DNA of 41,521 nt from Sedimenticola thiotaurini (lineage in GTDB: Bacteria > Pseudomonadota > Gammaproteobacteria > Chromatiales > Chromatiaceae), in assembly GCA_007713595.1 (NCBI GenBank), contig VMRY01000058.1:1-41521 (forward strand), given 5' to 3'. The translations under genes and the position numbers were made by a program. Below are positions 719 through 26,586 of the stretch, one piece after another. Below the pieces are notes generated by a model. It had not been told where the DNA came from and made no database searches. It saw only the letters and a program-made list of their open reading frames with translations. How positions within the stretch are numbered: the stretch's first letter is position 1; the number at the start of each line of letters is the position of its first letter.

Positions 719-733
719 CAACAAGGCAAGCAC

Positions 734-4550: not shown

Positions 4551-4787
4551 CTATCTCTCCTTAGTTATTTCACTCTAATTTAAAAAACTAATTTCACCAT
4601 CACTACTTTTCCATTCAGTGATTAAAGGCCTACGCAGCAATCGGATCATTACCAATCTAGTTGCAAGACCCGAAACCCCAGAACCGAAATTGACGCTTAT
4701 CCGGGAGGGAGTCTCGCCCGGCAGAATATACAGCATTATCAATCCGCTTCTGACCCCATTGCCTTTGTCGTCAGCTGAAGCGAGGTA

Positions 4788-5222: not shown

Positions 5223-5245
5223 GGATGATCCCTCGTAAATACATA

Positions 5246-5284
5246 GGGTCAGACTTGATCGATCGCTTTAATCGCGTCTGCCCC
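5246..5284. repeat. REP-like hairpin (GGGTCAGAC ... GTCTGCCCC)
   Basis: GGGTCAGAC (5246-5254) and GTCTGCCCC (5276-5284) form an imperfect stem enclosing GATCGATC. A matching TCTGACCCC lies at 4749-4757 on the far side of the HEPN-like gene. GGGTCAGA-type motifs are familiar from palindromic repeats and insertion-sequence ends in proteobacteria. No transposase remains nearby. Confidence 0.45.
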
Positions 5285-5319
5285 ACTTATTTTCAGTCTT
5301 TGGGGTTGAGTGACACCCA

Positions 5320-5538
5320 TTATTGTTTGTTTTTAGAGATTCCCATAATAGAAAAGCCTTCTCTCTGAAAAGAACCGTTTTCTTGGAGTACTTTTATTGG
5401 GTGCACGTACCGCAATTCAAGGCGAGGACGATAGAAATTATTATATGCTTCCTCCCATTCCTTGCTTGATCCACCAACAACAGGACTAGCGCTAAAATTA
5501 GTTACTACTCTACTTCTTTCATAGCATTTTACGCGTAA
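5320..5538 (-). pseudogene. Gene remnant, C-terminal coding fragment without a start
   Basis: The minus-strand frame ending at 5320 is open for 72 codons and reads as natural protein, for example SSKEWEEAYNNFYRPRLELR followed by a hydrophobic beta-like HPIKVLQENGSF. It has no ATG, GTG or TTG with a ribosome site at its upstream end, where it meets a stop at 5539-5541. I read it as the tail of a broken gene of unknown family. Confidence 0.35.
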
Positions 5539-5640
5539 TTAAATCAATGACATACATACGCCCTAGGCGATTCTAGTTCTAAACGCAGCGTGACACAACC
5601 GAAATGAAACATTTTTGGACGAACATTATGTGTCTCCACC

Positions 5641-5781
5641 ATCCCCATACAAATCCAAAGGTATTACAGCGGCTATCAGATCAAACTGGCCGCGCTGCAG
5701 ATGAATGGCGAATCGTTCTCCTGGCGCCTAAAGAATCAGAGTAAAGAACCAGCCGTGCTCCAGCCCGGCTTACTCATCTAA
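5641..5781 (+). pseudogene. Gene remnant, short C-terminal coding fragment
   Basis: A plus-strand frame encodes YYSGYQIKLAALQ and continues through SFSWRLKNQ and AVLQPGLLI before the stop at 779-781. The residue pattern looks coding, but there is no initiation site. It overlaps the stop of the VirB1-like gene tail-to-tail by 8 bases. Family not recognised; the remnant marks the left boundary of the transfer module. Confidence 0.3.
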
Positions 5782-6337
5782 AATCAACGGCCATATCGTC
5801 CAGACTTTCCTCATCCCTCCCGACAGTAAACACCACCTCCATGGTGGAAGCAGCGGGATCGACGCCATATCTAATATAGTGTGTCACTCGCTCAACATAA
5901 CCATTCGAGAAGCCTTTCCAGGTGCTTCCAGTGTTGTACAGCGACAACGCGCCTTGCATCTGCGAATAGGGGGAGGGGAATACGTTACCCTGACCGTTGA
6001 CCTGTGCCACTGCATCCAGGTATATCTGGCTTCCCAGCTGGATATTCCGACAAGGCTCAAAGGCCTCTGCAATGGAAGCACCCATCCGAGCCAAGTTGTC
6101 GCTATTCACCTGCATCAACCCCACATCGACGCTATAGCCCCGAGACACCAGGTCAACTGCCACCATGACCGCCTCGGTCAGACTCTTGGGCCGTACCCAT
6201 CGAGGGGCAGCCTGTCCCCTCCGTGTATTAACGCCCAGAGCATAGGGCAAACGCCGGGATTCCACCTGGACAATGGCCTCGACTACTTCCGCCGGCGCAC
6301 CTAAATTGCACTCTTCTATGAGGAGAGGTAAGTCCAT
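5774..6337 (-). CDS. VirB1-like lytic transglycosylase of the transfer system
   Basis: 187 residues with the fold pattern of SLT/lysozyme-like transglycosylases: the catalytic Glu in VQVESRRLPYALGVN (E26), the GLMQVNSDNL helix, and the C-terminal ALSLYNTGS segment. Such enzymes (VirB1 of Ti, TrbN of RP4) locally open peptidoglycan so the conjugation channel can cross the wall. No clear signal peptide is seen, which is odd for an exported enzyme. It is the last gene of the leftward tra run; its ATG overlaps the TAA of traB (TAATG), so translation is probably coupled. Confidence 0.85.
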   Translation of the reverse strand: MDLPLLIEECNLGAPAEVVEAIVQVESRRLPYALGVNTRRGQAAPRWVRPKSLTEAVMVAVDLVSRGYSVDVGLMQVNSDNLARMGASIAEAFEPCRNIQLGSQIYLDAVAQVNGQGNVFPSPYSQMQGALSLYNTGSTWKGFSNGYVERVTHYIRYGVDPAASTMEVVFTVGRDEESLDDMAVDFR

Positions 6338-7512
6338 TATCGATTCACCGCATAAATCAATGATTTATCAAAAAGCGAGGCCCAGGCCTTCAGCGCAGAC
6401 ACCTGTATCGCCGGGATATCGCCGCCCCTGGCCCACCAGTCATTACTCATACCGATCAGGACATCCGGATCGGTGGACATGGCCACCAGGGGAGGCCAGA
6501 ACAGCAGCTGTTCATAACAGATCAAAAACGCCGACCGCCTACCATCAATCTCAACCGACTGCGGAGCAAACCAGGCGGGGAGGGCGCTCTGATCACTCCA
6601 GGGTCGCCACATCGACACCGGCACCGGCATCAGTTGCTGATACACCGGATCGCCACCGGCACTGGTCAATCGGACAGCGGCGTTTTTATAGCCCTTCTGC
6701 GTGGGCAGCTCAGCACCAAACAGGATGGTCTGACCGCGACCCTCGGCGCGTCGCGCCAATTCATCCCAAAGAAAAAGAGACGCGTCACTCCACTGACCGA
6801 CGATGGTTTCAGGTAAGATCAGGACTCGCTCATTTCGGCGCATCAACTGATCAACAAGTGATTGTTGACGTTGTGCCGCCGTCAGTCCGGACGTCGATCC
6901 AGAGGCCATCAGGTAGGAAGTATTGACGGCCGCCCAGTGCGGAGGAGGGGCCTTCACACTTAGCGGTGTCACCATTGAGACCATAAACCAGAGGATGGCT
7001 AAGAGCGGGAAGCGAGAGGCTAGGCACACCGCCACAAACGTAGCACCCAGGCCAAACCACCCCCAGCCTGGCAGTAACACCCCGGCAGCGGTTAAGGGAT
7101 TGGTCCAGCCCACTATGCCGATAGGTGGCACCGATACCAGCACCAAAATCACCGCAAAACGCCAGATCGCCGGATTACGCCGCCACAGCAAGGCGTAGGG
7201 CAAGGACAGCAGCAGCGAGGCCCCGATCAACAGCAGCCAACCATTTTGGGTGCCCTGCCCAAAAAACACTGCCGCGCCGGCGGGGATGTCTCGCGCCGCC
7301 ACCAGGTAATAGGTCAGGGCGATCAACCAGGCGAGCAAACGGCTGTGCGCGATGCCCCAGAAGGACGGCAAAAAGAGCGCGGCACCCAACAAGATCACCT
7401 CGCCATGCCACGCCAGATAGGCGGTCAAGCCGGTGAGCGTTAGGAGCGTTCCCGCGTAGACGAGTCGGTGGGTTAACAGCTCTTGACGGCCAACTAAGGC
7501 GATTCCGTCCAT
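6337..7512 (-). CDS. traB: Conjugal transfer protein TraB (nitrilase-like membrane protein)
   Basis: 391 residues. The N-terminal half has several hydrophobic segments (roughly residues 17-185), and the C-terminal half is a carbon-nitrogen hydrolase domain. The usual Glu-Lys-Cys triad is readable: LPET (Glu, around residue 235), GYKNAA (Lys) and FLICYEQLLF (Cys). This is the arrangement of TraB of Ti plasmids, related in layout to apolipoprotein N-acyltransferase. Ti TraB affects transfer efficiency but its substrate is unsettled. It overlaps traF by 19 bases. GAGG ten bases before the ATG supports the start. Confidence 0.85.
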   Translation of the reverse strand: MDGIALVGRQELLTHRLVYAGTLLTLTGLTAYLAWHGEVILLGAALFLPSFWGIAHSRLLAWLIALTYYLVAARDIPAGAAVFFGQGTQNGWLLLIGASLLLSLPYALLWRRNPAIWRFAVILVLVSVPPIGIVGWTNPLTAAGVLLPGWGWFGLGATFVAVCLASRFPLLAILWFMVSMVTPLSVKAPPPHWAAVNTSYLMASGSTSGLTAAQRQQSLVDQLMRRNERVLILPETIVGQWSDASLFLWDELARRAEGRGQTILFGAELPTQKGYKNAAVRLTSAGGDPVYQQLMPVPVSMWRPWSDQSALPAWFAPQSVEIDGRRSAFLICYEQLLFWPPLVAMSTDPDVLIGMSNDWWARGGDIPAIQVSALKAWASLFDKSLIYAVNR

Positions 7513-8033
7513 AGGGGGGTTACCTCACTAATCAGATCCTTGATAGGAGTGGTGCCAAAATACCGTCCATCGAATGAGCGGGGGTGATAGTCGGAGAGCA
7601 AGAGAACATGGCCAACCGGGACGATGCCGCCCGTCTGTACCGGCATCGAACGTCCGGCGCTATCTTCGGTCAATGGCTGCGTATTGGGTACCAGCTGGCC
7701 GTTGACCTCGATACCTGCGTCAGTCACGGTCCAGCGATCCCCGGCCACCGCCCAAATGCGCTTTAACAGGGCCTCAACCCCGTCGCAGTCGAAACCCCAG
7801 GGTAGATACCCCCGCTCAATAAATTCACGGCGTACTGACTTGCCCGGCGCACAGGCCAACACATAGGGATGCTCGCCGGCATGGGTCGGGTCATAGTCGC
7901 CAGACTTCTGCCATAACCCGCGGGGGTAGCTTGCGGTGTGATTCAGATACAGTCCGCCGGCGCGGGCTATACCGATCACAGCCAGGACAGCCAGCAACGC
8001 CGCCAGCGCCTTAATCAATCGACGTTTAGCCAT
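7494..8033 (-). CDS. traF: Conjugative transfer signal peptidase TraF
   Basis: 179 residues with an N-terminal hydrophobic segment (residues 8-25) and an S26-type signal peptidase domain: SYPRGLW with the catalytic Ser, KRIWAVAGD with the general-base Lys region, and the closing SFDGRYFG box. In RP4, TraF trims and cyclises the TrbC pilin. Here the target pilin is not in the window. It overlaps traG by one base and traB by 19, within a tightly packed leftward operon. Confidence 0.88.
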   Translation of the reverse strand: MAKRRLIKALAALLAVLAVIGIARAGGLYLNHTASYPRGLWQKSGDYDPTHAGEHPYVLACAPGKSVRREFIERGYLPWGFDCDGVEALLKRIWAVAGDRWTVTDAGIEVNGQLVPNTQPLTEDSAGRSMPVQTGGIVPVGHVLLLSDYHPRSFDGRYFGTTPIKDLISEVTPLWTESP

Positions 8034-9949
8034 TAGCTTGGCTGAAAAAGCGCGTAGATCTGCGACTGTGCCCGATTCATGTCTGAATCGGTCGAACGCT
8101 TTTGCGGCTCCATGTAGAGACGATCAGATACGGCAGGCGCGGGAATCTTGGAGCGATCGGAGAGAACGGGATCAGCAAAGTACAGCGGCTGCTTGCCATA
8201 GATAGCGTTGAATCCGGACGGCATAATCAACATGTCGCCGGGTTCAACGATCTTGGTCCCATCGCTGTTCTTGATGGCCGCCGGCAAGCGCATGCACTCG
8301 TCAGCGGTGAGCAGGGGGCGCTCCACCTCTTGTATCGTTTCCGATACCCGGTTCAGCATCCCGCCAAAACGCGAGCCGGAGGTGGAGACCGCTTTTTTGA
8401 TCACCGTGGTTTTACCCGTCATGCGTGACAGCAGTTCAGCGGTTTCGATTTTATTGGGCGCAAAGGCCACCCGGACCTGGCAAGCGGAAATGATCGACTC
8501 GTCCTTGGAATAACTCTTATGTAGCTGGGCAAGGTCTTGCAGAATCAGGTAGGCCTTGATGCCGTAGCCGGCCAAATAAGAGAGCGATTCCTCCATCACA
8601 TCCAGTTTGCCAAGACTCGCAAACTCATCCAGCATGAGCAAAAGGCGGTGTTTGTAGTGCTGTTTGGTGCCGCCGTCTTCAAACTCCATCTTTTCGGTTA
8701 GCCGGCGGATGATCTGAGTCAGGATGATGCGGATCAAAGGCCTCAAGCGGTCTTTATCGGATGGCTTAACCACCAGGTAAAGTGACACCGGATCACTGTG
8801 ATTCATCAGGTCCGAAATAGAGAAGTCGGACTCCGTTGTGTTCTGGGTAATCACCGGATCACGATAGAGCGTCAGAAAAGAGACCGTAGTCGAATGTACG
8901 GAAGAGCGCTCACGCTCTTCCCGATTTAGCATGTCCCGTGCGGACTGGGCAATGGTGGGATGTGTGCCGGTATGTAAGTGTCGGTAGTGCAACATTGCCT
9001 GCAGGGCGTCATCCATTGTCCGGGTGGGATCGGACAGGAACAGGGAGAGATCGGTAAGCGAAGCGGACCGACCATCATCCCGCGCCACGTAGAGACAGTG
9101 CAGGATGATCCCGACCAAAAAGGCGTGGCCGGTTTTCATCCAATGGTCATTGAGGCCTTTCCCCTCCGGATCCGCAATAATGGTTGCCAGATTCTGCGCG
9201 TCGCCCACCTCTTCGGGCTTTCCGATCCGGATCTCCTGCAGGGGGTTGAACCGGGCGCCCAAACCGGTTGAATCGCTCGGTTCAAACCGCAACACCTTGT
9301 TATGGGCATACTGCTGACGCCAGCCAGCCGTCAACGCCCACGCCTCGCCCTTCAGATCATACGCAACCAGAGAGTGGGGCCAGGAAAGAAGGGTAGGCGT
9401 TACCAGGCTCACACCCTTACCCGAACGGGTTGGGGCAAAGGCGGCGATATGCTCCGGACCATTGTGCCGGAGATAATGGAGCTGGCGCTTTTCCACCCAG
9501 CCGCCCACAAATACACCCTGGGCTGTTTCCCCTTTTTTGGGTAACAGGCCTGACTCCTGGATCTCTGCCTGGGTCGCCCACCGGGCTGTGCCATGCAGCG
9601 CCCGGTGGGGTTGGCCCTTGCGTCGAAGCATAAAGTAAACCAGTCCAAACAGGGAAAAGGCGATCACCCCGGCAGCGGCAACCAGCATCGTCGCCTTTTG
9701 ATAGAGCTGGGGATCATTGTCAGACCAGGCGAGCGACCATTGAACGACTTTCCAGGGGCCGTACATGCCTCCGATCAGCGGTTCGCCTAGAGCGGGCGAA
9801 TGGTTGTATTGCCAAGCCAGGTACTGAGTACCGGCCATGAGCGATATTAAGGTACAAACCACCAGTAAGGCTAAAACGCCTTTCAGGCCAATGCCGTGCT
9901 GTACCGGGCCGGTACCGGCGCCGATCTGTGCAGGTATAGGGGTGCTCAT
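8033..9949 (-). CDS. traG: Type IV coupling protein TraG/VirD4
   Basis: 638 residues. Two N-terminal membrane segments (about 21-42 and 86-108) are followed by the cytoplasmic ATPase: Walker A PTRSGKGVS (173-181) and Walker B LLMLDEFASLG with D441-E442, then the ILQDLAQLHKSY segment of VirD4 proteins. It would connect the relaxosome at oriT to the secretion channel and pump the transfer strand. The length matches RP4 TraG (635). The ATG shares one base with the end of the relaxase gene. Confidence 0.95.
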   Translation of the reverse strand: MSTPIPAQIGAGTGPVQHGIGLKGVLALLVVCTLISLMAGTQYLAWQYNHSPALGEPLIGGMYGPWKVVQWSLAWSDNDPQLYQKATMLVAAAGVIAFSLFGLVYFMLRRKGQPHRALHGTARWATQAEIQESGLLPKKGETAQGVFVGGWVEKRQLHYLRHNGPEHIAAFAPTRSGKGVSLVTPTLLSWPHSLVAYDLKGEAWALTAGWRQQYAHNKVLRFEPSDSTGLGARFNPLQEIRIGKPEEVGDAQNLATIIADPEGKGLNDHWMKTGHAFLVGIILHCLYVARDDGRSASLTDLSLFLSDPTRTMDDALQAMLHYRHLHTGTHPTIAQSARDMLNREERERSSVHSTTVSFLTLYRDPVITQNTTESDFSISDLMNHSDPVSLYLVVKPSDKDRLRPLIRIILTQIIRRLTEKMEFEDGGTKQHYKHRLLLMLDEFASLGKLDVMEESLSYLAGYGIKAYLILQDLAQLHKSYSKDESIISACQVRVAFAPNKIETAELLSRMTGKTTVIKKAVSTSGSRFGGMLNRVSETIQEVERPLLTADECMRLPAAIKNSDGTKIVEPGDMLIMPSGFNAIYGKQPLYFADPVLSDRSKIPAPAVSDRLYMEPQKRSTDSDMNRAQSQIYALFQPS

Positions 9950-11811
9950 TATTCACGTCCTCTGTCTTTAATTTGGATGCAAGTTCCATCTGCTTCGACC
10001 ACACTACCTACCCGGCACTGTTTGAGTTTAGAAGCCTGTTCCTGGTTGATGGGACGAACCAACATCGTCCCTTCCTTTTCTAACAGGGCGACCTTTGGCC
10101 CACCCTTTATCGTTCTCTGCCCGCGATACACCAGCGTCCCGGCATCGCTCTCTTGATAGCGCCGATGGTGCAACAGGTCGGCTACCTTATCGGTGGTTGC
10201 ATTCCGCTGATCAACGTACTGTTGCACGGGGTCTTTGCGATAGGCGTAGCGTTGGTGGGCGCCCTTGACTTGCTCAAGCGCGGAGTCGGTAAAGGTGATA
10301 TTCATGCCCAAGCGTCCGGCCACTTCTGCAGCCTGGCGCTGAAAGATCTCCGAACCGTTGATCTTCAAACGATTGCCAAACTGATTTTGCGCCATTCGCA
10401 AGGCAATCTGAATACTTCGCTCGTCGAAGGCCTCGCCCACACGGATACGCTTGCCTTCATCCGTGACCGCCTTGCCGTCCATATAATAGGTGACGTCCCC
10501 ATTCCGATGCACCTGGTACTTCATTTGATAGAGCAGGGCGTCCGGTGCCGCCTCGGCAGTACCGGAGAGATACGACGCCTCCTTATGATCAGTGCGTTTC
10601 TTCGCCCGTCTCAGCGCATCGACGGCCACGGTGTTGCCGCTATTCGCCTCTCGCTGCAGAAACTGTATCCAGGTCTCTTTACGATGACCTTGCATCGCCG
10701 CCTGTCGGAGGCCGTTATAGTGACGTTTCAGCGCCTGCTGTGCCTGTACCCGCTCCATTCTCAACAGGGAATTAGCGGCCCGCTTTTTCCGTCCGCTGAC
10801 ATCCTTACGCGTAAAGATCACTTGGCGTCTGGCGCGAAACGTCGCGGTCAATTCCCGGTACGCCTTACTGGCCTCCGCCTTGATCGTCTGCAGCGCTTGC
10901 GTCTTTTCCGACAGTTGCCGCTCGCTGGTCGTCTTGTATTGGTTCCACAGCTCGGCACGGGCCTGGTCCTGGATGGTCTGGGGTGCGGGTTCATACTGCT
11001 GGGAGGGATCAGGAAGACTGGCACCGGCAGGTGTGTAATCGCCCAGCTGTCGCTCCAGCCCACCTTTTGAAAAGCGTCTCCCCAGCTGAGAGGCCTTAAT
11101 CGAAAACTCTGCATTGCCTTGATCCCGTACCACGAAGCCGTTGCCACGCGGGGCAATCATCAGGCCGTACTCATTCAGCGTCTGGTGGACATCGAACCAA
11201 GTGGGGTCGGGCCGGTCCAGTAACGCGCTCAACCTCGCCTGTGGCTCTCCCTGTGCCCAGCGCTGAAACGATTCGATGCCCTGGTGCGCTTCCAGATCCT
11301 GGACCGGGGCCGTGAGGAGTTGGCCCTTCTCTTCGCCGGCATCGACCACCAGCCCATGCCGCGCCTCGAGTAGCCGACAGGCTTTTTGCAGTTCATGAAA
11401 ATCATTGAACGGCGTAACCGTGCACAGGGTTTCGGGATGTACCTTGTTGATCGCGATGTGGATGTGCAGATGATCGGTGTTGTCATGCACGGCGGAGACA
11501 CGTTGGTGATCGCCCAGTTTGATGGCTTCACACAACCGCTGCTCGATGTCGTCTAGGGCTTCCCGGCTGGGCCGCTCGCCCTCATGGAACGAGGCGATCA
11601 GGTGATAGGTCTTATCGACTTGTGAGCGCGTATTGAGGGCCTGAGTCGCCTCGATTTCCTTGATAACCAAATCCATGTCATCGCTTAAACAGTTGGTGGG
11701 TGTCGAATATAATAGCCTTTCTTCAGAGGAATGGGAATCTTGTATATAACGGACCAGTGCCGCAAAACTCGATTTGCCGTCCTTCCTGGACCGGGATCGT
11801 TTAGCGATCAC
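9949..11811 (-). CDS. traI: Relaxase TraI, MOB-P family, with LPD7-type C-terminal domain
   Basis: 620 residues. Motif I is FAALVRYIQ with Y22, the position of the nicking tyrosine in RP4 TraI. Motif III is HDNTDHLHIH (H109, H114, H116, H118), the metal-binding histidine cluster of HUH relaxases. The middle is coiled and basic (about 290-400). Residues about 405-510 look like the LPD7 domain often joined to these relaxases. It is shorter than RP4 TraI (732) and has no primase or helicase. It should nick at the oriT 470 bases upstream of its start. It overlaps traJ by 4 bases (ATGA) and traG by 1. Confidence 0.93.
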   Translation of the reverse strand: MIAKRSRSRKDGKSSFAALVRYIQDSHSSEERLLYSTPTNCLSDDMDLVIKEIEATQALNTRSQVDKTYHLIASFHEGERPSREALDDIEQRLCEAIKLGDHQRVSAVHDNTDHLHIHIAINKVHPETLCTVTPFNDFHELQKACRLLEARHGLVVDAGEEKGQLLTAPVQDLEAHQGIESFQRWAQGEPQARLSALLDRPDPTWFDVHQTLNEYGLMIAPRGNGFVVRDQGNAEFSIKASQLGRRFSKGGLERQLGDYTPAGASLPDPSQQYEPAPQTIQDQARAELWNQYKTTSERQLSEKTQALQTIKAEASKAYRELTATFRARRQVIFTRKDVSGRKKRAANSLLRMERVQAQQALKRHYNGLRQAAMQGHRKETWIQFLQREANSGNTVAVDALRRAKKRTDHKEASYLSGTAEAAPDALLYQMKYQVHRNGDVTYYMDGKAVTDEGKRIRVGEAFDERSIQIALRMAQNQFGNRLKINGSEIFQRQAAEVAGRLGMNITFTDSALEQVKGAHQRYAYRKDPVQQYVDQRNATTDKVADLLHHRRYQESDAGTLVYRGQRTIKGGPKVALLEKEGTMLVRPINQEQASKLKQCRVGSVVEADGTCIQIKDRGRE

Positions 11812-12149
11812 AGCGACATGATCCTCGCTTTTAATGACTGCTGTGTCTGCTCGATCTCTTTGAGCAAGGCGCGGATGTCAGGCACCAGGTCTTTTTCTGC
11901 GCCTTTGCCCTGTAACCAATGTTTGAGCAAGCCACCGAGTCGCCCCTGATCGGCGTTTACTCTCACCAGTTCCAAGATGGCTTGCTGGTCCAAGGTGCTC
12001 TTGGGTTCGATGTCCATGAGGAGATCCCGCACCAGGGCGGCGGGGGAGGCATAGCTGAAAGCCTTTACCTTTTCCTCCGCGGCGGCCTTCTCTTCAGGGG
12101 TGCACCTGACCAGGATGTGGGCGGTTCGTTTGCGTGTTTCTGATCCCAT
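11808..12149 (-). CDS. traJ: TraJ/MobC-like relaxosome protein (ribbon-helix-helix)
   Basis: 113 residues. The N-terminal RTAHILVRCTPEEKAAAEEK is typical of RHH-type relaxosome accessory proteins, followed by a helical region with the QGRLGGLLKHWL segment seen in MobC/TraJ proteins. In RP4, TraJ binds an inverted repeat at oriT and recruits TraI. The gene starts just left of oriT and is transcribed away from it, the same arrangement as in RP4. Its position and size (RP4 TraJ 123) support the call; sequence identity to RP4 is only inferred. Confidence 0.82.
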   Translation of the reverse strand: MGSETRKRTAHILVRCTPEEKAAAEEKVKAFSYASPAALVRDLLMDIEPKSTLDQQAILELVRVNADQGRLGGLLKHWLQGKGAEKDLVPDIRALLKEIEQTQQSLKARIMSL

Positions 12150-12222
12150 CGATTTTGTCTATTCCATTCCTTTGGCGGTAGCCATCACCCCGCAGGGCAG
12201 GAGGCCTCGTTGAGCACGGCAG

Positions 12223-12290
12223 TGCGAATAAGGGGCGGGTTTGTATGCGGTCGCCTTCGGCGGCGGTATATCAAACACCTATCCTGCCCT
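12223..12290 (+). other. oriT: Origin of transfer (oriT), IncP-like, with nic site
   Basis: CACCTATCCTGCCC at 12276-12289 matches the RP4-type nick region; the expected cut is after the G of TATCCTG, between 12286 and 12287. To its left an imperfect inverted repeat (GGTTTG-TATGCGG-TCGCC against GGCGGCGG-TATA-TCAAACACC, about 12238-12279) corresponds in place to the TraJ-binding repeat. GCGAATAAGGG at about 12225-12235 resembles the TraK-side or start-of-nick elements in RP4. It lies exactly between divergent traJ and traK. Nick position is by analogy, not shown. Confidence 0.85.
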
Positions 12291-12464
12291 ACTTCTAATT
12301 CGCAGTATATTACTACCCTTGTGCAGTTTCTAGTCTGCTGTGGTAATTACAGGTAAATCGTGGGTGAAACCCCTGTGTTAACTTGTTACTACCTGTTTTA
12401 TACCTATTTTAAATCTAGTAATGATTATGTATTTATCTATAATTACCCTGTCGTTTGGGAAGGT

Positions 12465-12854
12465 ATGAATAGGGCACCTAAGGTGAAAAAGACGGATTTG
12501 CTTGAGGAGTTGCGCCGGACAAAGTCCAGCAATAAGTCGCTCATCATCAGTCGCTGGCCGGAAATAGCGGCCGCCTTGGAAGCGGGCTATACCAAAAAGG
12601 ATGTTTACGAGTTGCTACAAAAACAGGGTTTGAATGTCACCTATACGCACTTCACCCGGTTCACGAAAAAGCTACAAAATAAGGGTAAGCAGGTTGAACC
12701 CGAACAGAGTCCCAAAGCTGGCCAGGTGGCCGCTATTTCCAAGCAGCGGGCCAAAAAACCAGAGCAAGACGGCCCGATCACCGTGGGCGCCGATCAGGGT
12801 GAAGGATTCAGTTACAGCCCCATTCCCAACGAAGAGGAGCTTTACGGGAAATAG
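12465..12854 (+). CDS. traK: TraK-like oriT-binding protein
   Basis: I chose the ATG at 12465 (MNRAPKVKKTDLL), preceded by GGGAAGG, over an upstream in-frame start because the upstream residues are unlike the family and lie in promoter-type DNA. The 129-residue product has RWPEIAAALEAGYTKKDVYE and FTRFTKKLQ segments of TraK/DUF5338 proteins, a small basic helical N-terminal domain and a loose tail. RP4 TraK (134) wraps oriT DNA and helps the relaxosome. It is divergent from traJ across oriT, as in RP4. Confidence 0.85.
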   Translation: MNRAPKVKKTDLLEELRRTKSSNKSLIISRWPEIAAALEAGYTKKDVYELLQKQGLNVTYTHFTRFTKKLQNKGKQVEPEQSPKAGQVAAISKQRAKKPEQDGPITVGADQGEGFSYSPIPNEEELYGK

Positions 12855-13061
12855 CGAAACCGGGACCAGCCGGTCATGGAGGTGGCGACATTGGGCGTGA
12901 GCTCTCCAAGTTGACTATTCACCATCCGGTGGTAAAAATGATGGCGAATATTAGTTACATTCACTTCACCCATTTTACGTAGGAACACCTGGCGCGGAAA
13001 GTCGCCGGTTTTTATCGTCCCAAGGATCTGCTGGGCGATTTGGAAACAACCAAGGAGGGGA

Positions 13062-13145
13062 GCCGGCTTGCCGGCGGATGGATCTCATTACAAGGTGCAA
13101 CCGCATGCGGTTGCTTATTCGGGTTCGCGCTTGGCGCGAATCCCC
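13062..13145. repeat. Three consecutive palindromes between traK and traL
   Basis: GCCGGC-TT-GCCGGC (13062-13075), the perfect 18-base palindrome GCAACCGCATGCGGTTGC (13097-13114), and GGGTTCGCGC-TTG-GCGCGAATCCC (about 13121-13145) follow one another in the 322-base traK-traL gap and end 20-30 bases before the traL ribosome site. They would fold in the tra mRNA leader and could act in regulation, processing or polarity. The rest of the gap (12855-13060) shows nothing clear. Confidence 0.6.
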
Positions 13146-13176
13146 ACAGGGAAGACAGAATATTCGGAGATTCATT

Positions 13177-13917
13177 ATGTCTGATACCCATTTCACCATG
13201 CAGGGTAAAGGTGGCGTTGGCAAAACCTTTACCGCCTCGATCTTGGCGCAGTTTTTTGCCGCCGGCCTTCAAGAAGGCCAATCACTGAAGCTGATCGATA
13301 CCGATCCGGTGAACGCCACTTTTTCTCAGTACAAGGCGTTTGAGGTGGTGCGACTTGAACTGCAAGAAGGCTCGAATTCCCAAATCACCACCCGAAAGTT
13401 CGATCAGCTCTTGGAAATGATGCTGACAGACGATCAATCCACTTTTGTGGTGGATAACGGGGCAGCCTCTTTTCTCCCGCTTTCTCACTACATGATCGAG
13501 AACAAGGCGATTGAAATGATGCTCGATGCAGGCCGCACGGTTTGGATTCATCCAGTCATTACCGGCGGCCTAGGGCAAGACGATACGCTATCGGGGCTAG
13601 ATCATTTGGCTCGTCAGATGCCCGCAGCGGTCAAGATCGTGGTTTGGAAAAATCCCTATTTTGGCCGGATCGAAAAGGGCGGAAAACCCTTTGAAGAGAT
13701 GCCGGTATACAAGAACCACGCAAAGCGGCTCCATGCGGTGATCAATATACCCGATCAATCCGCGGATACCTTTGGTGAAGATGTCAAAACCATGCTGCAG
13801 CAGAAGATGACGTTTGACCAGGCGATTGGCTCGGATGCCTTCGGCATCATGAGCCGCCAACGCCTGAAAATCACCAAGGAAAAGCTGTTCAGTAGCATTG
13901 CTCCTGTATTCGCATGA
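13177..13917 (+). CDS. traL: TraL-like P-loop ATPase (ParA/MinD fold)
   Basis: The start at 13177 (MSDTHFTMQ) has CGGAGA six bases upstream; longer in-frame starts run through the palindrome leader. The 246-residue protein opens with a deviant Walker A QGKGGVGKTF (residues 9-18), followed by LIDTDPVNATF and VVDNGAASFLPL, the ParA-fold switch segments. RP4 TraL is 241 residues and of the same fold; its exact role in transfer is not settled. It overlaps traM by 4 bases, between traK and traM as in RP4. Confidence 0.85.
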   Translation: MSDTHFTMQGKGGVGKTFTASILAQFFAAGLQEGQSLKLIDTDPVNATFSQYKAFEVVRLELQEGSNSQITTRKFDQLLEMMLTDDQSTFVVDNGAASFLPLSHYMIENKAIEMMLDAGRTVWIHPVITGGLGQDDTLSGLDHLARQMPAAVKIVVWKNPYFGRIEKGGKPFEEMPVYKNHAKRLHAVINIPDQSADTFGEDVKTMLQQKMTFDQAIGSDAFGIMSRQRLKITKEKLFSSIAPVFA

Positions 13918-14345
13918 GTCTGGATAGAAACACGCTGATTACCGAGGTGGCCAAGCGATGGGGGATCATCCTAAAAGAGGATGATCCCATTATCGCGGTC
14001 ATTGCCTTGAATGATTTAGTCCTGGAACAACACACCCTGCGACTGGAAGCCGCCTATAAGGCGTTGGAAAACCACCTGGAAAAAGTAAACAAAACCTACG
14101 TGGATCAGAGCCGGGTAATTGCCAAAACCGTGGTGGGGGACGCCCTGGTGCATGCCACCAGGGAGATCCGGAGAGAGGCGGACCAGGCCACTCAGGTGAT
14201 AGGCCATGCCAACTCCCAGCAGATCGAGGGAATCAGTCTTGGGTTAAAGGAGCGTGAGGTCCTGAAACAGTCAGCAACAATCGCCTGGACAGTAGCCGGT
14301 ATTTCAAGCTTGGGATTGGTCGGAGCACTGTTCTGGTTCACCTGA
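13914..14345 (+). CDS. traM: TraM-like conjugal transfer protein
   Basis: 143 residues (RP4 TraM is 145). A helical, coiled-coil-like body (about residues 28-110) is followed by one C-terminal membrane segment (about 120-141) ending FWFT*, giving a tail-anchored topology. The ATG overlaps the traL stop. The family has no known enzymatic function, and the call rests on size, topology and the traK-L-M order. Confidence 0.75.
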   Translation: MSLDRNTLITEVAKRWGIILKEDDPIIAVIALNDLVLEQHTLRLEAAYKALENHLEKVNKTYVDQSRVIAKTVVGDALVHATREIRREADQATQVIGHANSQQIEGISLGLKEREVLKQSATIAWTVAGISSLGLVGALFWFT

Positions 14346-14355
14346 CCACAAGAGC

Positions 14356-14444
14356 CCACAACCAGACCGCTGCGCGGTCTCCCTCGCTTTGCCTCCGTTG
14401 GCCCTTGTTGGGGCCACTCCGGCAGTCTCGGGCAGGGGTTGTGG
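14356..14444. repeat. Long-range inverted repeat with internal hairpins after traM
   Basis: CCACAACC (14356-14363) and GGTTGTGG (14437-14444) enclose AGACCGC-TGC-GCGGTCT (14364-14380) and a GGCC...GGCC stem-loop near 14398-14415. It marks the end of the transfer module. It could be a terminator-like or boundary structure. It lacks the GTTRRRY core of an integron attC site. Confidence 0.5.
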
Positions 14445-14513
14445 ACTTTGTGGACAGCTTCCGTGATAACCAGCACAATTTAGGCTGTATCGACATAAGG
14501 AAAGGAGAGCCTC

Positions 14514-14996
14514 TTGAAAGTATATCCTCCACTTTATCTGATGGGGAGAAAGATCAACTGTTGGCGATGTGACGCCAAGACATCGGTTGTGGGTATATTG
14601 GCTCCAGCCGTAGATTATCCGGAAGAATTCAAGGACCCAGAGTATCCTGACGACGAGGAAGAGCCGCTAATTTTCGTATCCATAGATCATATCCCCGCCA
14701 CCATCTTATCCTTCATTCAGGCACTTGTTCCCGGATATAAATTACAAGACTCCCGCACTGCAGGACATGAATACTATGGTAATTCATGTAGGGCTTGTGG
14801 AGCTCTCATTGGCGATCACTACATCCATAGCGAACCTGGCGGGGCATTTTTTCCAACAAATGCTGAAGAAGCGCAACGGATCTATCTAACGGAGATACCC
14901 CTTTTGGAGGCAGATGAAATCAGTGCTGAGTTAAGTATCGGAAGGGGAGGTTTAATCCTGGATAATGCGCAACGTGTTGTACGTAAACTGGAATAG
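14514..14996 (+). CDS. Unknown zinc-ribbon protein
   Basis: 160 residues from a TTG start with AGGAGAG five to six bases upstream; no in-frame ATG has a better site. Two Cys pairs, NCWRCDAK (C16, C19) and SCRACGALIG (C92, C95), make a likely zinc ribbon. An acidic stretch (PEYPDDEEEP, about residues 42-51) lies between them. The layout suggests a small nucleic-acid or protein-binding factor. It follows the tra genes and is convergent with the ImmA-like gene. I do not recognise a named family. Confidence 0.7.
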   Translation: MKVYPPLYLMGRKINCWRCDAKTSVVGILAPAVDYPEEFKDPEYPDDEEEPLIFVSIDHIPATILSFIQALVPGYKLQDSRTAGHEYYGNSCRACGALIGDHYIHSEPGGAFFPTNAEEAQRIYLTEIPLLEADEISAELSIGRGGLILDNAQRVVRKLE

Positions 14997-15043
14997 ATCA
15001 TGTTTATCTGACAATTGGTATTAGTGGCCGGAATTGGTTTAGT

Positions 15044-15862
15044 CTAATATTCTTCCTCAACACCTACCAGGCAGTCGTCATCATAGGCCAGAAGTGTGTA
15101 GCTGAAACCATCATTAAGGAGGATCGAGCTGCAATAAATTGTAGATAGACGTCCATATTTTGAAGAAGGGTTCACCCAGTCTATAGCGTCTACTTCGTCA
15201 AAATAAGTGGGGTAGTTTTCAGATCTCACATCGGTAAGGCTTGCTTGTTGTTCCCTTGTAAGTGGGCTTTGCTCTATAAAATAGGCAAAGTTATTCATAG
15301 GAACAAATCTTACAAAATGCCCGTTCTGATGAATGATGAGAGCCGAAGGTGATTTATTGGAATAGGCCATTTTTCTGTAGGTGGCTTCCAGAGATGCCTC
15401 ACAAGCTCTGGAGACAATATCAATATTTGACCAATTGATATCTCCATCGGTCAGCTTAGAGGTTAATGGTTGAGGTATTAATAGTCCCGAGGCAAAACCG
15501 TTCGCTTCTTGTTCGATGGGGTCATTGAACTGATTCGATAGTTCTTTTGTCCCGCACTCGAAAGAAGACTTCACCATGGGCATGATGTGCATACATACGT
15601 GTCCGAGTTCGTGGGCAGCAGTAAAGTTTAGCCTGCCCGGATCGGGAATATTGGAATTGATGTAAACCAAAGCACCTTTGATGTTCCCTTCGGCGCGCCC
15701 GAGAATCTTATCGGAGTCGAAAGACTGAAGCTCCATGCTAAGCTTGAAATCATCGGAGTGAATAGACCGGGCGACATCAAACGGTCGTACTGGCAGCGTA
15801 TCGTAACCGAGGTCCTCTAATAAACTTTCGGCTTCTGCGATTCCTTTCTGAATTTGTATCAT
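15044..15862 (-). CDS. ImmA/IrrE-family metallopeptidase
   Basis: 272 residues. The zinc-metalloprotease motif is AAHELGHVCMH (HExxH), with a downstream PIEQEANGFASGLLIP segment supplying the third ligand Glu, as in ImmA/IrrE (DUF955, M78) proteins. Such proteases cleave a partner XRE repressor and so release a controlled operon. The ATG overlaps the stop of the XRE gene (ATGA), so the two form a repressor-protease pair. The C-terminal 110 residues are beta-rich and could sense the inducing signal; that is inference. Confidence 0.88.
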   Translation of the reverse strand: MIQIQKGIAEAESLLEDLGYDTLPVRPFDVARSIHSDDFKLSMELQSFDSDKILGRAEGNIKGALVYINSNIPDPGRLNFTAAHELGHVCMHIMPMVKSSFECGTKELSNQFNDPIEQEANGFASGLLIPQPLTSKLTDGDINWSNIDIVSRACEASLEATYRKMAYSNKSPSALIIHQNGHFVRFVPMNNFAYFIEQSPLTREQQASLTDVRSENYPTYFDEVDAIDWVNPSSKYGRLSTIYCSSILLNDGFSYTLLAYDDDCLVGVEEEY

Positions 15863-16218
15863 TCCTTCGTCATTTTCCTTAGTCGTCCTGCCATACCGAT
15901 AAGCATTTCCTGATCGTCTTCGCTCAACTCCTCAAGCATACCCCATTTCCGGTGGAAAGCCCTGGTTTCTTCGTCTTCCGGTGAGACAGTATCCACCCTT
16001 TCCCCTGTGATCTCATGCACGGAGACTTTCAGTGCTGACGCGATTTTTCTCAGGACAACAATGGTAGGTATCCGCTTTTCGCCTTGTTCAATTTTACTTA
16101 AGGCGGCACCAGTGATACCAGCTTCCTCAGCAAGCTTAGCCTGCGTCCAATTGACAGAAGACCTTAACCTCTTGATATTACTGCTAATAATTGCAGCCTG
16201 CTGTTCTTTATCACTCAT
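15859..16218 (-). CDS. XRE-family transcriptional repressor
   Basis: 119 residues with a helix-turn-helix at about 13-66 (TQAKLAEEAGITGAALSKIEQGEKR) and a C-terminal helical tail. It is translationally coupled to the ImmA-like protease downstream and divergent from the ubiquitin-like operon. Its ribosome site AGGAG lies inside operator O1 of the shared intergenic region, so autoregulation is expected. It probably represses both directions until its partner protease cuts it. Confidence 0.9.
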   Translation of the reverse strand: MSDKEQQAAIISSNIKRLRSSVNWTQAKLAEEAGITGAALSKIEQGEKRIPTIVVLRKIASALKVSVHEITGERVDTVSPEDEETRAFHRKWGMLEELSEDDQEMLIGMAGRLRKMTKE

Positions 16219-16222
16219 TGCG

Positions 16223-16322
16223 TTAACTCCTGTTAATTTTTATTTTAACACCAGTTGACATCCATGCCTAGGTAGCCCTATCATATTAACTGTAGTTAAT
16301 ATTTATGTGTAACACGAGTTAA
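16223..16322. promoter_or_regulatory. Array of four TTAAC-N4-GTTAA operators
   Basis: Four 14-bp sites: TTAACTCCTGTTAA (16223-16236), TTAACACCAGTTGA (16245-16258), TTAACTGTAGTTAA (16286-16299) and GTAACACGAGTTAA (16309-16322). Two are perfect inverted repeats in their five-base arms; two have one mismatch. Start-to-start distances are 22, 41 and 23 bases, close to whole helical turns. The first covers the ribosome site of the XRE gene, the last touches the ribosome site of the 57-aa gene, and the middle two bracket the rightward promoter. Very likely the binding sites of the XRE protein. Confidence 0.85.
16255..16284 (+). promoter_or_regulatory. Promoter of the ubiquitin-like operon
   Basis: TTGACA (16255-16260) and TATCAT (16279-16284) with an 18-base spacer. 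The -35 overlaps operator 2, and operator 3 starts two bases after the -10, so repressor binding would block it. The predicted transcript starts near 16291. Confidence 0.7.
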
Positions 16323-16333
16323 AGGAGACCGAT

Positions 16334-16507
16334 ATGGCAACAAATCCACCGAAAGGTGACGGGCATCGCAACGGAGCAGTGAAAGGCCGCTCCCAAACGA
16401 AAACCCTGTCAGGACACTACGTGAAACGCGACGCGGATACGGGGCGTTTCATGGATGTGAAGACTTCGTCCAAGACGCCGTTCAAAGGCGTTCGTAAAGA
16501 AAAGTGA
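16334..16507 (+). CDS. Small basic protein, first gene of the ubiquitin-like operon
   Basis: 57 residues, basic and rich in Gly, Lys and Arg, with a GHYVKRDADTGRFMDVK segment and a PFKGVRKEK end. The start has AAAGGAG seven bases upstream. Small proteins of this look, ending in FKGVRKEK, recur on plasmids; I know of no function. It is the first gene of the operon controlled by the four-operator region and stops 10 bases before the ubiquitin-like gene, whose ribosome site overlaps its stop codon. It may be a partner or a conjugation target; that is inference. Confidence 0.75.
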   Translation: MATNPPKGDGHRNGAVKGRSQTKTLSGHYVKRDADTGRFMDVKTSSKTPFKGVRKEK

Positions 16508-16517
16508 GGGAATTGAA

Positions 16518-16766
16518 ATGAGTAGTGAAAAATCAAAACGTCCCGAGTTATTCATCGACAATCAGCGCTTTGACTGGAACGAGGGGATCATCACCGGCGC
16601 AGAACTGAGAGAGTTGGGTTCATTACCGGACGATGTAGAAATCTTCTGGAAGGTTCCGGATCAACCTGACGTGCCGGTTGAAAATGACACGATCATCGAC
16701 CTAACCGAGCATCCAGGTCCGGACCGTTTTTCAACCCAGTCCGTTGGCTCACAAGCTGGCGCATAA
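16518..16766 (+). CDS. Ubiquitin-like protein (single multiubiquitin-type domain)
   Basis: 82 residues. The pattern LFIDNQRFDWNEGIITGAEL and then VEIFWKV...VENDTIIDL fits the beta-grasp multiubiquitin family that accompanies bacterial E1/E2/JAB operons. Only one domain is present, where relatives often carry two or three. It ends SQAGA, so a Gly is followed by one extra residue; JAB cleavage after Gly could expose a conjugatable C-terminus. GAGGG eight bases before the ATG gives a firm start. It is followed directly by the E2 gene. Confidence 0.82.
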   Translation: MSSEKSKRPELFIDNQRFDWNEGIITGAELRELGSLPDDVEIFWKVPDQPDVPVENDTIIDLTEHPGPDRFSTQSVGSQAGA

Positions 16767-16770
16767 AGAT

Positions 16771-17175
16771 ATGCCTTTACTGCTGGACGAAGATTACAAG
16801 GAGTTAGAAGCGCAAGGCTTTTCGTACACCGAGGATGAAGCCCAGCGTTTTCTGGTACTGCTTAACTACAAGCTGCCGAAAGGCATTTACGATCACGAAG
16901 TGTGTGATGTACTGGTAGTCATTCCCAGTAATTACCCGCAAGCAGGTAATGACATGCTCTGGACAAATCCCCGGCTATCCCGCCTGGATGGAAAGCTGAT
17001 CCCCGCCACCAACAATGTGGGTGGTGGGGACAACAGAATTTATCAGGGAAAGGAGTTTTGCCGCTGGTCTCGGCACTGGAATCAGGGTAAATCTGTCTGG
17101 AGACCTGGTACAGATGGTATTGAAACAATTTTGCGGAGAATTGACTGGGCATTCCGGAGGCCCGATGCACAATGA
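16771..17175 (+). CDS. E2-like ubiquitin-conjugating protein (prokaryotic E2 family E)
   Basis: 134 residues from the ATG at 16771, four bases after the ubiquitin-like stop; a TTG at 16744 inside the preceding gene would add nine residues but has no ribosome site. The pattern LPKGIYDHEVCDVLVVIPSN, PRLSRLDGKLIP, CRWSRHW and WRPGTDGIETIL is that of Prok-E2_E proteins. Two Cys are present, one in the HEVCD strand and one in EFCRWSRHW; the latter is the better candidate for thioester formation, but this is not certain. It overlaps the E1 gene by 4 bases. Confidence 0.85.
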   Translation: MPLLLDEDYKELEAQGFSYTEDEAQRFLVLLNYKLPKGIYDHEVCDVLVVIPSNYPQAGNDMLWTNPRLSRLDGKLIPATNNVGGGDNRIYQGKEFCRWSRHWNQGKSVWRPGTDGIETILRRIDWAFRRPDAQ

Positions 17176-18620
17176 ATGCAGCAAGATTGACGTTACTTGG
17201 TTCCCAGCATGATGAGCTTGTAAATTATCTGGAGGCACATCCGGAAGGAAACGAAAGAGCTGCCATAGTGTTGTTCCGCAGGCTTCATATCAGTGTGGAT
17301 GGCTTGCCGGACTCGGACCGCTATATTGCCCAGGACGTGATACCTTTTGATGAAGCGTGGATCAATAGTAGCTCCCCTACTCATTTTGATTTCAAACTAG
17401 CTCCATTAAGAGAGATATTCCGGAGGTGTGAGGAAGAAAAGCTTGTTTTTGGCTTTATCCATAATCATCCCGAGGGGCCGGATGAGTTTTCAATCAAGGA
17501 TGACGAAAACGAAATCACCCTGTTAAGAGCGATTAGCAACCGGAATGGAAAAGACATTACTTTCGTAGCAATGCTTTGGGCTAACAATGTATGGAAAGCC
17601 CGAGTCAGAGCAGCAGCTATGCCTGAGAATACCGTACCCGTCAGGCACACTCTTGTCACGACTGACCCGCTAAAAATCTATGGCTACAAGGAAAGCAGCG
17701 AAGACCACTCTGAAACCCACAAGCGGGGAGCCGCTGCATTCGGCCAGCCTTTTGTAGACATGCTGCAATCCTTGCGTGTCGGCGTGGTCGGCACAGGAGG
17801 AACAGGCAGCCCATTTGCCACGTTGGGAGCACGAGCAGGTATTAGCGAGCTGGTGCTGATAGATGACGATGATCTGGCATTGAGCAATCTCAACCGCGTG
17901 AGAGGTCTGAAAAGAGGCGATGTCGGCGATAAAAAAGCCCGCAAACTAAAAGATTTTATTGATGATATTGGTGTGTCAGTGAAGGTCGGAGTTTGCGAGT
18001 CAAAGATTGATTCGGACCCGAACGCGCTAGATGCCCTGGCCAGTTGTGATGTGGTCGTGGGCTGTACGGATGACTTTATTGGCAGGGACGTGATGAATAT
18101 TGCCCTCTATGCCTATGCCCAGCTATATATCGACCTCGGTCTTGGCGGACGTGTTATGGATGACAAGACGGGTCAACCTGGACTTCGTTATCATTTTGGT
18201 CGGATCAGTACCATTCTGCCGGAAAGCGGGGAGTGTCTTTTTTGCCAGGGTGTGATTCATGAAAAGTGGATACAAACCCAACTTCTCAAACGTGAAAACC
18301 CCAACATAACCAAAGAAGAGCTAAAGGAAAGATATCTTGAAGATGGCGGCGAGGAAGCGCCCGGTGTAGGACCTTTTACCAGCGCCACAGCAGATTTTGC
18401 ATTGGCAACGCTGTTTGATCTGATTAAACCGTATCGGCGTTATCCTCCTGTACTTCGAAAAGACATGATTCAAGTCGATTTTGTGAATATGGAATTTAGA
18501 AGCCGCCAGACCAAATCTGATAATGAATGCCCGTATTGTAGGCATCGCAAATTTTTATTAATGAAAGAGACTTACAGGCTGAAACGGCCTGTATTGGGAA
18601 AACGTGATGAATATGTTTAA
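17172..18620 (+). CDS. JAB-E1 fusion: deubiquitinase-like plus ThiF-type activating enzyme
   Basis: 482 residues. The N-terminal JAB/JAMM domain has E28 and FIHNHPEGPDEFSIKD (H97, H99, S107, D110), the zinc-protease signature. A ThiF/E1 adenylation domain follows: GVVGTGGTGS (glycines 207-212), LVLIDDDDLALSNLNR (228-242) and GCTDD. CLFC (C355, C358) and CPYC (C453, C456) make a structural zinc site. It would process the ubiquitin-like protein, adenylate it and pass it to the E2. ATGA overlap with the E2 gene. No separate E3 is seen. Confidence 0.92.
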   Translation: MNAARLTLLGSQHDELVNYLEAHPEGNERAAIVLFRRLHISVDGLPDSDRYIAQDVIPFDEAWINSSSPTHFDFKLAPLREIFRRCEEEKLVFGFIHNHPEGPDEFSIKDDENEITLLRAISNRNGKDITFVAMLWANNVWKARVRAAAMPENTVPVRHTLVTTDPLKIYGYKESSEDHSETHKRGAAAFGQPFVDMLQSLRVGVVGTGGTGSPFATLGARAGISELVLIDDDDLALSNLNRVRGLKRGDVGDKKARKLKDFIDDIGVSVKVGVCESKIDSDPNALDALASCDVVVGCTDDFIGRDVMNIALYAYAQLYIDLGLGGRVMDDKTGQPGLRYHFGRISTILPESGECLFCQGVIHEKWIQTQLLKRENPNITKEELKERYLEDGGEEAPGVGPFTSATADFALATLFDLIKPYRRYPPVLRKDMIQVDFVNMEFRSRQTKSDNECPYCRHRKFLLMKETYRLKRPVLGKRDEYV

Positions 18621-19023
18621 TAAAATAATTAGCTGGTTGAAGGGACTATTACGGTCAGCGGAAACCGAGTTCGCACCCAAGAGATCATTACCGCCCGTCC
18701 ATTTTGCTCGCATAACTTCAGTGCAAAAACCGCCAAAGAATGAAGAAATCGAGGAAAGAACGCTTTACTACGTTGCCCCTTCCGGAAAGCCGAAGTGGAG
18801 CTTATTTCAGTGCCCGTGCGGATGTGGAAGCGTAGTCACCTTATCGCTACAGGCTGTTCATACCCCCCAGTGGAGACTGACAAAATCTGTTTCCGGACAC
18901 CCGACACTGCACCCTTCTGTGTGGCGTGATAAAGGATGTTTAAGTCATTTCTGGGTAAAGGAAGGCCGTGTATTCTGGTGCCCGGATACCGGCACTCATC
19001 CGGATTTGAGGAGGTTTAACTAG
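18607..19023 (+). CDS. DUF6527-like zinc-binding protein ending the ubiquitin-like operon
   Basis: About 138 residues; the ATG at 18607 overlaps the end of the E1 gene (a GTG at 18604 is also possible). A C-terminal core with FQCPCGCG, then SVWRDKGCLSHFWVKEGRVFWC, has the Cys/His pattern of DUF6527 proteins, which commonly end ubiquitin-like E1/E2/JAB operons. The N-terminal 20 residues are amphipathic or hydrophobic (FNKIISWLKGLL) and may attach to a membrane. Biochemical role unknown. The stop codon lies inside an inverted repeat. Confidence 0.8.
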   Translation: MNMFNKIISWLKGLLRSAETEFAPKRSLPPVHFARITSVQKPPKNEEIEERTLYYVAPSGKPKWSLFQCPCGCGSVVTLSLQAVHTPQWRLTKSVSGHPTLHPSVWRDKGCLSHFWVKEGRVFWCPDTGTHPDLRRFN

Positions 19024-25950: not shown

Positions 25951-26586
25951 ATGTGTGGACGTTACGCAAATCATATCGAGGCCGTGCACGAGTGGCTGGA
26001 GATTCTAAAGGATTGGCCAGCCGGCATCGCGACCGGGTTCAATGTTGCACCGACGCAGATCATTCCGGCCGTTCAGGCACAGGGGACCTTTCCAATGCGC
26101 TGGGGCTTGGTGCCGACCTGGTCGAAAGAGGCCTCCCCCAAGTACGCCACCTTTAACGCCCGTTTGGAATCGGTGAGCGATAAACCGGCCTTTCGCAATG
26201 CCTGGCGCCATTCCCAGACTTGTCTCATTCCGGCGCGGGGTTATTACGAGTGGCGTACTGAGCAAGGGGTGAAGCAGCCTTACTTTATCCACGCGCCAGA
26301 AGATCCAGGATTGTTGGTATTTGCCGGCCTGTGGGAACTCCGCGAGGGGCAATACTCCTGCACCATTCTGACCCGGGAATCGGCCGGAGCGCTTTCACAG
26401 CTCCACAGCCGGATGCCGGTGATGCTTTCACCTGGGGATGCCCGGAGTTGGCTGACCGAGGGTACCGGTGGTGCCGAACGACTCGGCGAGTCAAGGGTGC
26501 ATCTCGATGTGCAGTTTCACGCCGTGGATCGCACCGTGGGTAACCCGCGCAGTCAGGGTGAAGCCTTGATCCAGCCGATCCGATAG
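25951..26586 (+). CDS. yedK: HMCES/YedK-type abasic-site DNA-protein crosslinking protein
   Basis: 211 residues of the SRAP family, which shields abasic sites in single-stranded DNA by a covalent bond to Cys2. All active residues are visible: C2 after Met removal, N69 (TFNARLE), E100 (GYYEW) and H152 (LHSRMP). Length is normal. No clear LexA box lies upstream; TATAAT at 25852-25857 is a possible -10 without a good -35. Plasmid copies could protect single-stranded DNA during conjugation, which is inference. Confidence 0.93.
   Translation: MCGRYANHIEAVHEWLEILKDWPAGIATGFNVAPTQIIPAVQAQGTFPMRWGLVPTWSKEASPKYATFNARLESVSDKPAFRNAWRHSQTCLIPARGYYEWRTEQGVKQPYFIHAPEDPGLLVFAGLWELREGQYSCTILTRESAGALSQLHSRMPVMLSPGDARSWLTEGTGGAERLGESRVHLDVQFHAVDRTVGNPRSQGEALIQPIR

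Follow-up and report, generated by a model that had tools for sequence, protein, structure and literature searches.

Predicted CapH/CapP control of a Bub operon through a four-site operator array on mobile DNA of Sedimenticola thiotaurini

Gene content of the locus

The DNA analysed here (the window) is a stretch of 41,521 bases, contig VMRY01000058.1 of the Sedimenticola thiotaurini assembly GCA_007713595.1, in which a gene pair resembling the CapH repressor and the CapP protease lies divergently to an operon of the bacterial ubiquitination-like (Bub) type (Table 1). The operon encodes, in this order, a basic protein of 57 amino acids (57 aa), a ubiquitin-like protein (Ubl), an E2-like protein, a JAB-E1 fusion and a DUF6527 protein. 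The first gene past the operator array described below is therefore not a ubiquitin-system gene, which corrects an earlier prediction made from the letters of this window (the original prediction). Its 57-aa product has no match in Pfam or NCBIfam.

The Ubl matches a multi-ubiquitin domain protein (PDB 9d59, 2.9e-9). A profile of seven E2 proteins, that of the window among them (alignment A3), matches BubB of Citrobacter (PDB 9eae, 5.8e-23), and JAB-E1 alone matches Citrobacter BubCD over residues 57-426 (PDB 9ea4, 5.7e-16), its Prok-JAB match (0.0018) lying below the Pfam cut-off. Because of these matches the operon, as judged from its sequence, is a Bub operon, with a multi-ubiquitin-type Ubl, a BubB-type E2 and a BubCD-type JAB-E1 fusion. 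Across alignment A3 the WSRH motif is invariant and no cysteine is; Bub enzymes may use a hydroxyl in place of a thiol. A DUF6527 gene is annotated directly after E1 in six of nine plasmid Bub loci read (L022, L023, L024, L025, L027, L028). The operon does not fit the BilABCD system, as JAB and E1 of the window form a single open reading frame (ORF), whereas BilC (JAB) and BilD (E1) are separate genes (PMC11354881; papers are cited by PMC number here for the parts of them covered).

On the other strand, the M78 protease matches the PADLOC capP model at 7.8e-38 (covering 7-240 of 242) and the XRE protein matches capH at 1.8e-14 (residues 10-115 on 6-100 of 103). A CapP profile (A1), across which HExxH is preserved, matches the PDB entry 7t5t, named CapP, at 1e-11; the CapH profile hits nothing more specific in PDB than general XRE-type proteins. 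The 3' end of capH overlaps the start of capP. An N-terminal helix-turn-helix (HTH) domain of XRE type and an M78 protease thus both match along their length, and the pair adjoins the promoter of an operon with a known or presumed immune role, its relatives adjoining operons of the cyclic oligonucleotide-based antiphage signalling system (CBASS). By these matches the regulators are CapH and CapP.

The locus has a mobile setting. Positions 415-18644 of the window (18.2 kb) are 99.8% identical in G831, a genome of another genus of the same family, and the identity ends inside the DUF6527 gene, 99 bases short of the end of the other contig. Besides the CapHP-Bub locus, the shared block carries genes for a coupling protein and a relaxase as well as NikA-like and TraM-like genes. 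At E 1e-20 the protease was not found in the two other genomes searched of the window's own genus. Downstream, beyond the shared block, a SOS response associated peptidase (SRAP) gene lies at 25951-26586.

Table 1. Features of the CapHP-Bub locus and copies of the 57-aa gene (positions are those of the window unless another locus is named)
Feature	Position	Strand	Match or remark
capP-like M78 (ImmA/IrrE) metallopeptidase, 272 aa, HELGH motif	15044..15862	-	Pfam Peptidase_M78 2.6e-11
capH-like XRE repressor, 119 aa	15859..16218	-	Pfam HTH_3 3.5e-14
Operator A TTAACTCCTGTTAA	16223..16236		exact; AGGAG, the capH ribosome-binding sequence, inside
Candidate capH promoter TAGGCA-17-TAAAAT, TG before -10	16242..16270	-	9/12 consensus matches
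Operator B TTAACACCAGTTGA	16245..16258		1 mismatch; covers part of operon -35 and of capH -10
Candidate operon promoter TTGACA-18-TATCAT	16255..16284	+	11/12 consensus matches
Operator C TTAACTGTAGTTAA	16286..16299		exact; at expected operon start point
Operator D GTAACACGAGTTAA	16309..16322		1 mismatch; beside ribosome-binding sequence of first operon gene
57-aa basic protein (P0001, phrog_12550), first operon gene	16334..16507	+	phrog_12550 1.5e-20, function unknown
Ubiquitin-like protein, single Multi_ubiq domain, BubA-type	16518..16766	+	Pfam Multi_ubiq 1.5e-6
E2-like protein (Prok-E2_E), BubB-type	16744..17175	+	Pfam 8.9e-36
JAB-E1 fusion, BubCD-type, 482 aa, one ORF	17172..18620	+	Pfam ThiF 1.6e-28
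DUF6527 protein, operon end	18604..19023	+	Pfam 4e-21
57-aa gene copy, locus L037	11048-11218		
57-aa gene copy, locus L038	5001-5174		
57-aa gene copy, locus L039	4001-4177		

Operator sites between capH and the operon

The original prediction described four TTAAC-N4-GTTAA sites in the gap between the divergent genes, with a TTGACA-18-TATCAT promoter between the inner two and the outer two overlapping the ribosome sites of both transcripts. All four sites are present, A and C exact and B and D with one mismatch to the pattern, which is identical to its own reverse complement. The promoter is there as a consensus match; it shares 4 bp of its -35 with operator B, and operator C begins 1 base past its -10. 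As regards the outer sites, the description holds for A, which contains the AGGAG of capH, and not for D, which shares only 2 bp with the AAAGGAG of the first operon gene. Operator B also overlaps the candidate -10 of capH (TAAAAT, 16247-16242). Read from the position of the -10, the operon start point would fall at operator C.

The gap holds all four sites with at most one mismatch found in the whole window. When the 115-bp region was shuffled 5000 times with dinucleotides preserved, no shuffle reached four such sites, the largest count being 1. With as many as two mismatches allowed, no enrichment is seen over the full window (16 sites found, 11.4 expected, 16 reached by 13 of 100 shuffles); thus the signal is the cluster of sites. 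The centres of the operators are spaced by 22, 41 and 23 bp (about two, four and two helical turns), with a point of symmetry at about 16272.

Conservation of the operator array beside CBASS operons

Outside the family, the complete CapH/CapP pairs found to be closest (52-60% identity) are divergent from CBASS operons. The best plasmid matches (XRE 59%, M78 53-54%) come from Enterobacter hormaechei (NZ_OR497351, locus L010) and Shewanella ANA-3 (NC_008573, L011), where the genes divergent from the pair are annotated as CD-NTase, ThiF, JAB and SAVED. A third CBASS locus is L037 of genome G916, where PADLOC recognises the cyclase, E1-E2, JAB and effector.

Relative to the start of capH, the offsets of the four sites are 5, 27, 68 and 91 in the window. 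Both plasmids have them at 5, 27, 68 and 86, with two mismatches in site A, one each in B and C and none in D. With up to two mismatches allowed, a count of four is reached by 2 of 5000 shuffles for L010 and by 4 of 5000 for L011. In L037, sites B, C and D are found at 27, 67 and 85, and operator B occupies offsets 27-40 alike in all four loci. Over the first 82 bases, the operator arms are identical to the window at 27 of 30 positions, as against 23 of 52 (L010) and 22 of 52 (L011) outside the arms (Fisher P 4e-5 and 2e-5, respectively). The HTH region of the three aligned CapH proteins keeps a T-x-A-A-L-S-x-I-E stretch, which we take to cover the recognition helix.

As the offsets and arms are kept beside both CBASS and Bub operons, the array seems to travel with the regulator rather than with the operon. 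The original prediction had named conservation of the sites in homologous intergenic regions as a check, and the close relatives of the regulator do keep them (all four in L010 and L011; B to D in L037). The fourth site shifts, and in the two plasmids, with 200 bp between the divergent genes, it lies about 100 bp ahead of the CD-NTase start. Blocking of a ribosome site is therefore unlikely to be its main role, and a part in cooperative repression is more likely.

Bub loci with more distant regulators

A JAB-E1 match is present in 113 plasmid records, and nine neighbourhoods were read (L022-L030). Six of them (L023, L024, L025, L027, L028, L030) have an ImmA/IrrE gene at most 4 kb upstream, next to an annotated HTH gene in all but L023, and none was found within that distance in L022, L026 and L029. 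The proteases of L024, L025, L028 and L030 match PADLOC capP at 2.9e-6 to 2.3e-14, and capH matches weakly in three of the four. Prok-E2_E was found at E <=0.001 in 8 of 369 genomes of the window's class (its own included; one match lies below the curated cut-off). In two of the other seven (G074, G179) an M78 match lies no more than 2 kb away; in G042, one of those without, a contig end comes after about 2 kb. The chromosomal pair of G074 (L019) matches PADLOC strongly (capH 7e-18, capP 2e-49). A JAB-E1 scan of genome contigs returned a single relative, the near-identical L002.

The distant Bub-linked pairs were also searched blindly for palindromes and judged against 200 shuffles. Arrays were unconvincing in L018 (three sites, 6%), L024 (two, 6%), L025 (two, 8%), L027 (two, 14.5%), L019 (three, 27%), L023 (two, 35.5%) and L028 (four sites in the downstream stretch, 8%; one site upstream). 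In L030, an Acidiphilium plasmid Bub operon with an HTH/ImmA pair of its own, there is a three-site GTCTT-N6-AAGAC array (3026-3174; 0 of 200 shuffles), which suggests multi-site operators with an altered specificity.

DUF2188 genes lie in or adjoin the Bub operons of L022 (5769-6014) and L028 (3040-3267).

A predicted CapH/CapP switch and its alternatives

We consider it very probable that the Bub operon is under the control of a CapH/CapP switch. CapH would bind the four inverted repeats, which are roughly aligned on one face of the helix; as the sites cover both divergent promoters, it would repress the operon and its own gene. A build-up of single-stranded DNA (ssDNA), due to DNA damage or perhaps to phage attack or transfer of the carrier element, would activate CapP, which would then cleave CapH and so turn the operon on. 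The logic of the original prediction (an XRE repressor on four operators, cleavage by an ImmA-type protease and derepression) fits these findings. Its further claim, that such a control mode was undescribed for this class of operon, is not sustained: with the operon identified as Bub, the mode is not new, as CapW or CapH+CapP, the two not counted apart, have been associated with 219 of 544 Bub operons (Chambers et al. 2026, PMC13373217). CapP is described there, and for CBASS (PMC10904395, PMC10233336), as a protease which cuts CapH once activated by ssDNA. The mechanism is thus plausible, mostly known and ordinary, and the comparative evidence is moderately useful.

The pair could instead be a controller of the mobile element itself, of ImmR/ImmA type and acting on excision or transfer, with the Bub operon a mere neighbour. 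ICEBs1, an integrative and conjugative element (ICE), also has an ImmR/ImmA-type pair. The transfer genes nearby and the block shared across genera speak for such a role, as does a related repressor-protease module that governs the ICE TnSmu1 (PMC10233336). However, a scan confined to the window shows no site beyond the four at up to one mismatch, hence no second operator cluster and no operators at excision or transfer promoters; moreover, outside the family, the nearest complete relatives adjoin CBASS, and PADLOC labels the pair capH/capP. We therefore hold this role to be unlikely.

A somewhat smaller probability attaches to a stand-alone stress or toxin-antitoxin-like unit, for which the four sites would be purely autoregulatory. 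Operators A and B do stand on the capH promoter side, and M78 relatives are met in varied surroundings, with matches in 60 plasmid records, but C and D lie at or downstream of the candidate operon promoter, B lies on its -35, and the geometry of B and C is kept in the CBASS loci. Least probable of all is that the sites are bound by another regulator, e.g. a host XRE or LexA-like protein: their binding by CapH is deduced, but they accompany this CapH type across hosts and beside different operons, and the HTH region is well conserved among the CapH proteins of those loci.

Several points weigh against CapH/CapP control of the Bub operon. CapH binding, CapH cleavage, the ssDNA signal and the output are what we infer for this pair, and, according to PMC13373217, phage protection by Bub operons had yet to be demonstrated. 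On the CBASS side, L037 lacks site A at up to three mismatches, and a blind palindrome search there gave a two-site repeat only, reached by 8% of 200 shuffles. L010 and L011 are identical at 183 of 200 intergenic bases, and L010 and L037 agree at 53 of the first 66; given this kinship, the CBASS side amounts in effect to one lineage with variants. A scan of 11 distant Bub loci (9 plasmid, 2 genome) did not turn up the four-site TTAAC array in any of them; L019 carries a lone site with 1 mismatch, and the other 10 loci have none at up to two. Finally, close CapP relatives are rare: they were found in 2 of 369 genomes of the class (the window's own and a fragment), 1 of 398 of the phylum (its own), 2 of 98 of the order (its own and G831) and 1 of 394 genomes of another order.

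Elsewhere, the family of G916 has a relative in one of four genomes. One of 24 genomes of the family of G218 has one too, which was not used, being a 92-aa open frame at a contig end (its neighbouring ORF resembles, by eye, an IS200-type transposase). Phages gave one weak M78 match; viral contigs gave none with the single protein and one weak match each with profiles A1 and A2. Complete E. coli genomes gave no match to the E. hormaechei module, searched as DNA. An rpoB search for an E. coli-like search centre led to genome G444, at 78% identity.

The 57-aa gene behind damage-type regulators

A protein search with the 57-aa product found 75 plasmid and 16 phage records. The gene stands directly behind a regulator in 13 of 22 distinct loci read, a count over hand-chosen loci with regulator profiles mostly seeded from the loci counted. 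This regulator is CapHP in the window and L037, CapKS-like in L038 and L053, and WYL in L039, L040, L041, L043, L049, L051, L052, L054 and L061. The seeds comprised six of the nine WYL loci, both CapKS-like and both CapHP loci, which leaves L049, L051 and L061 as non-seed hits; Pfam WYL is above the cut-off in the first two of them and below it in the third. The label CapKS-like reflects the order of the genes together with HATPase_c matches that fall short of the Pfam cut-off and winged-helix matches, of which one exceeds its own cut-off.

With the profiles used, no such regulator was found at the other nine loci (L024, L042, L050, L055-L060). They include both phage loci read (of the 16 phage records), from Streptococcus and Staphylococcus phages, in which the gene lies inside the repressor/antirepressor region, and L024, in which it follows DUF6527 at the end of the Bub operon, with the distant HTH/ImmA pair upstream. 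The genes that come after the 57-aa family belong to Bub, CBASS, nuclease or other systems; in L037 the 57-aa gene comes right behind the array, ahead of a hydrolase-like gene and CBASS. Four of 198 genomes of the class have a match, three of these (the window's own included) with such a regulator, and a DNA search with a Klebsiella copy as query found the gene in 4 of 5426 E. coli genomes. In Clavibacter (L057) a DUF2188 gene (3671-3892) lies beside it.

As a tentative suggestion, which we find rather doubtful, the mobile module might extend beyond regulator and operators, the array and the 57-aa protein forming a portable induction cassette that takes different defence systems. The protein, common to operons under CapHP, CapW-like and CapKS-like control, would then be an unrecognised shared factor of damage-induced defence. 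Made first on damage, it might, for example, shield the host, bind nucleic acid or tune the effector.

Relation to known systems and implications

The nearest counterpart is the CapH/CapP pair of CBASS, which likewise places an XRE repressor and an M78 protease beside a defence operon and has three or four operator positions in common with the window in its closest relatives; the target in the window, in contrast, is a Bub operon. The Bub operons with CapW or CapH+CapP share both the operon class, by the BubB and BubCD matches, and the regulator class (PMC13373217). That paper, however, studies CapK/CapS, and in the parts covered it contains neither CapH operators nor the 57-aa gene.

IrrE (PprI)/DdrO of Deinococcus similarly consists of an ssDNA-activated M78 protease that cleaves a repressor (PMC10904395), but it governs a DNA damage response and not a defence operon of a mobile element. 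ImmR/ImmA of ICEs such as TnSmu1 is likewise a repressor-protease pair on mobile DNA (PMC10233336), but it controls the element. RptR of restriction-modification islands is also a repressor of a defence island with several palindromic sites at its promoter (PMC12255303); it differs in its fold and in its 6-bp site in three direct repeats, and a protease partner is unmentioned in the parts of that paper covered. In the literature listings, the key CapH paper (Lau et al. 2022) lying outside their scope, we met neither a four-site CapH array nor the 57-aa gene.

Protease-induced ubiquitin-like conjugation is thus already published as the Bub-CapHP association, and repressor-protease pairs of this kind are already known to induce anti-virus operons after DNA damage. 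What is useful beyond this is the set of operator positions common to CBASS and Bub loci and the recurrent 57-aa gene. The latter, a small gene whose product has no assigned function, is found repeatedly behind damage-type regulators of three unrelated kinds. The former, offsets 5, 27, 67-68 and 85-91 from the capH start, offers a search signature for the targets of this CapH type. As the operator positions are conserved with the repressor between two unrelated kinds of operon, CapHP together with its array is predicted to be exchangeable.

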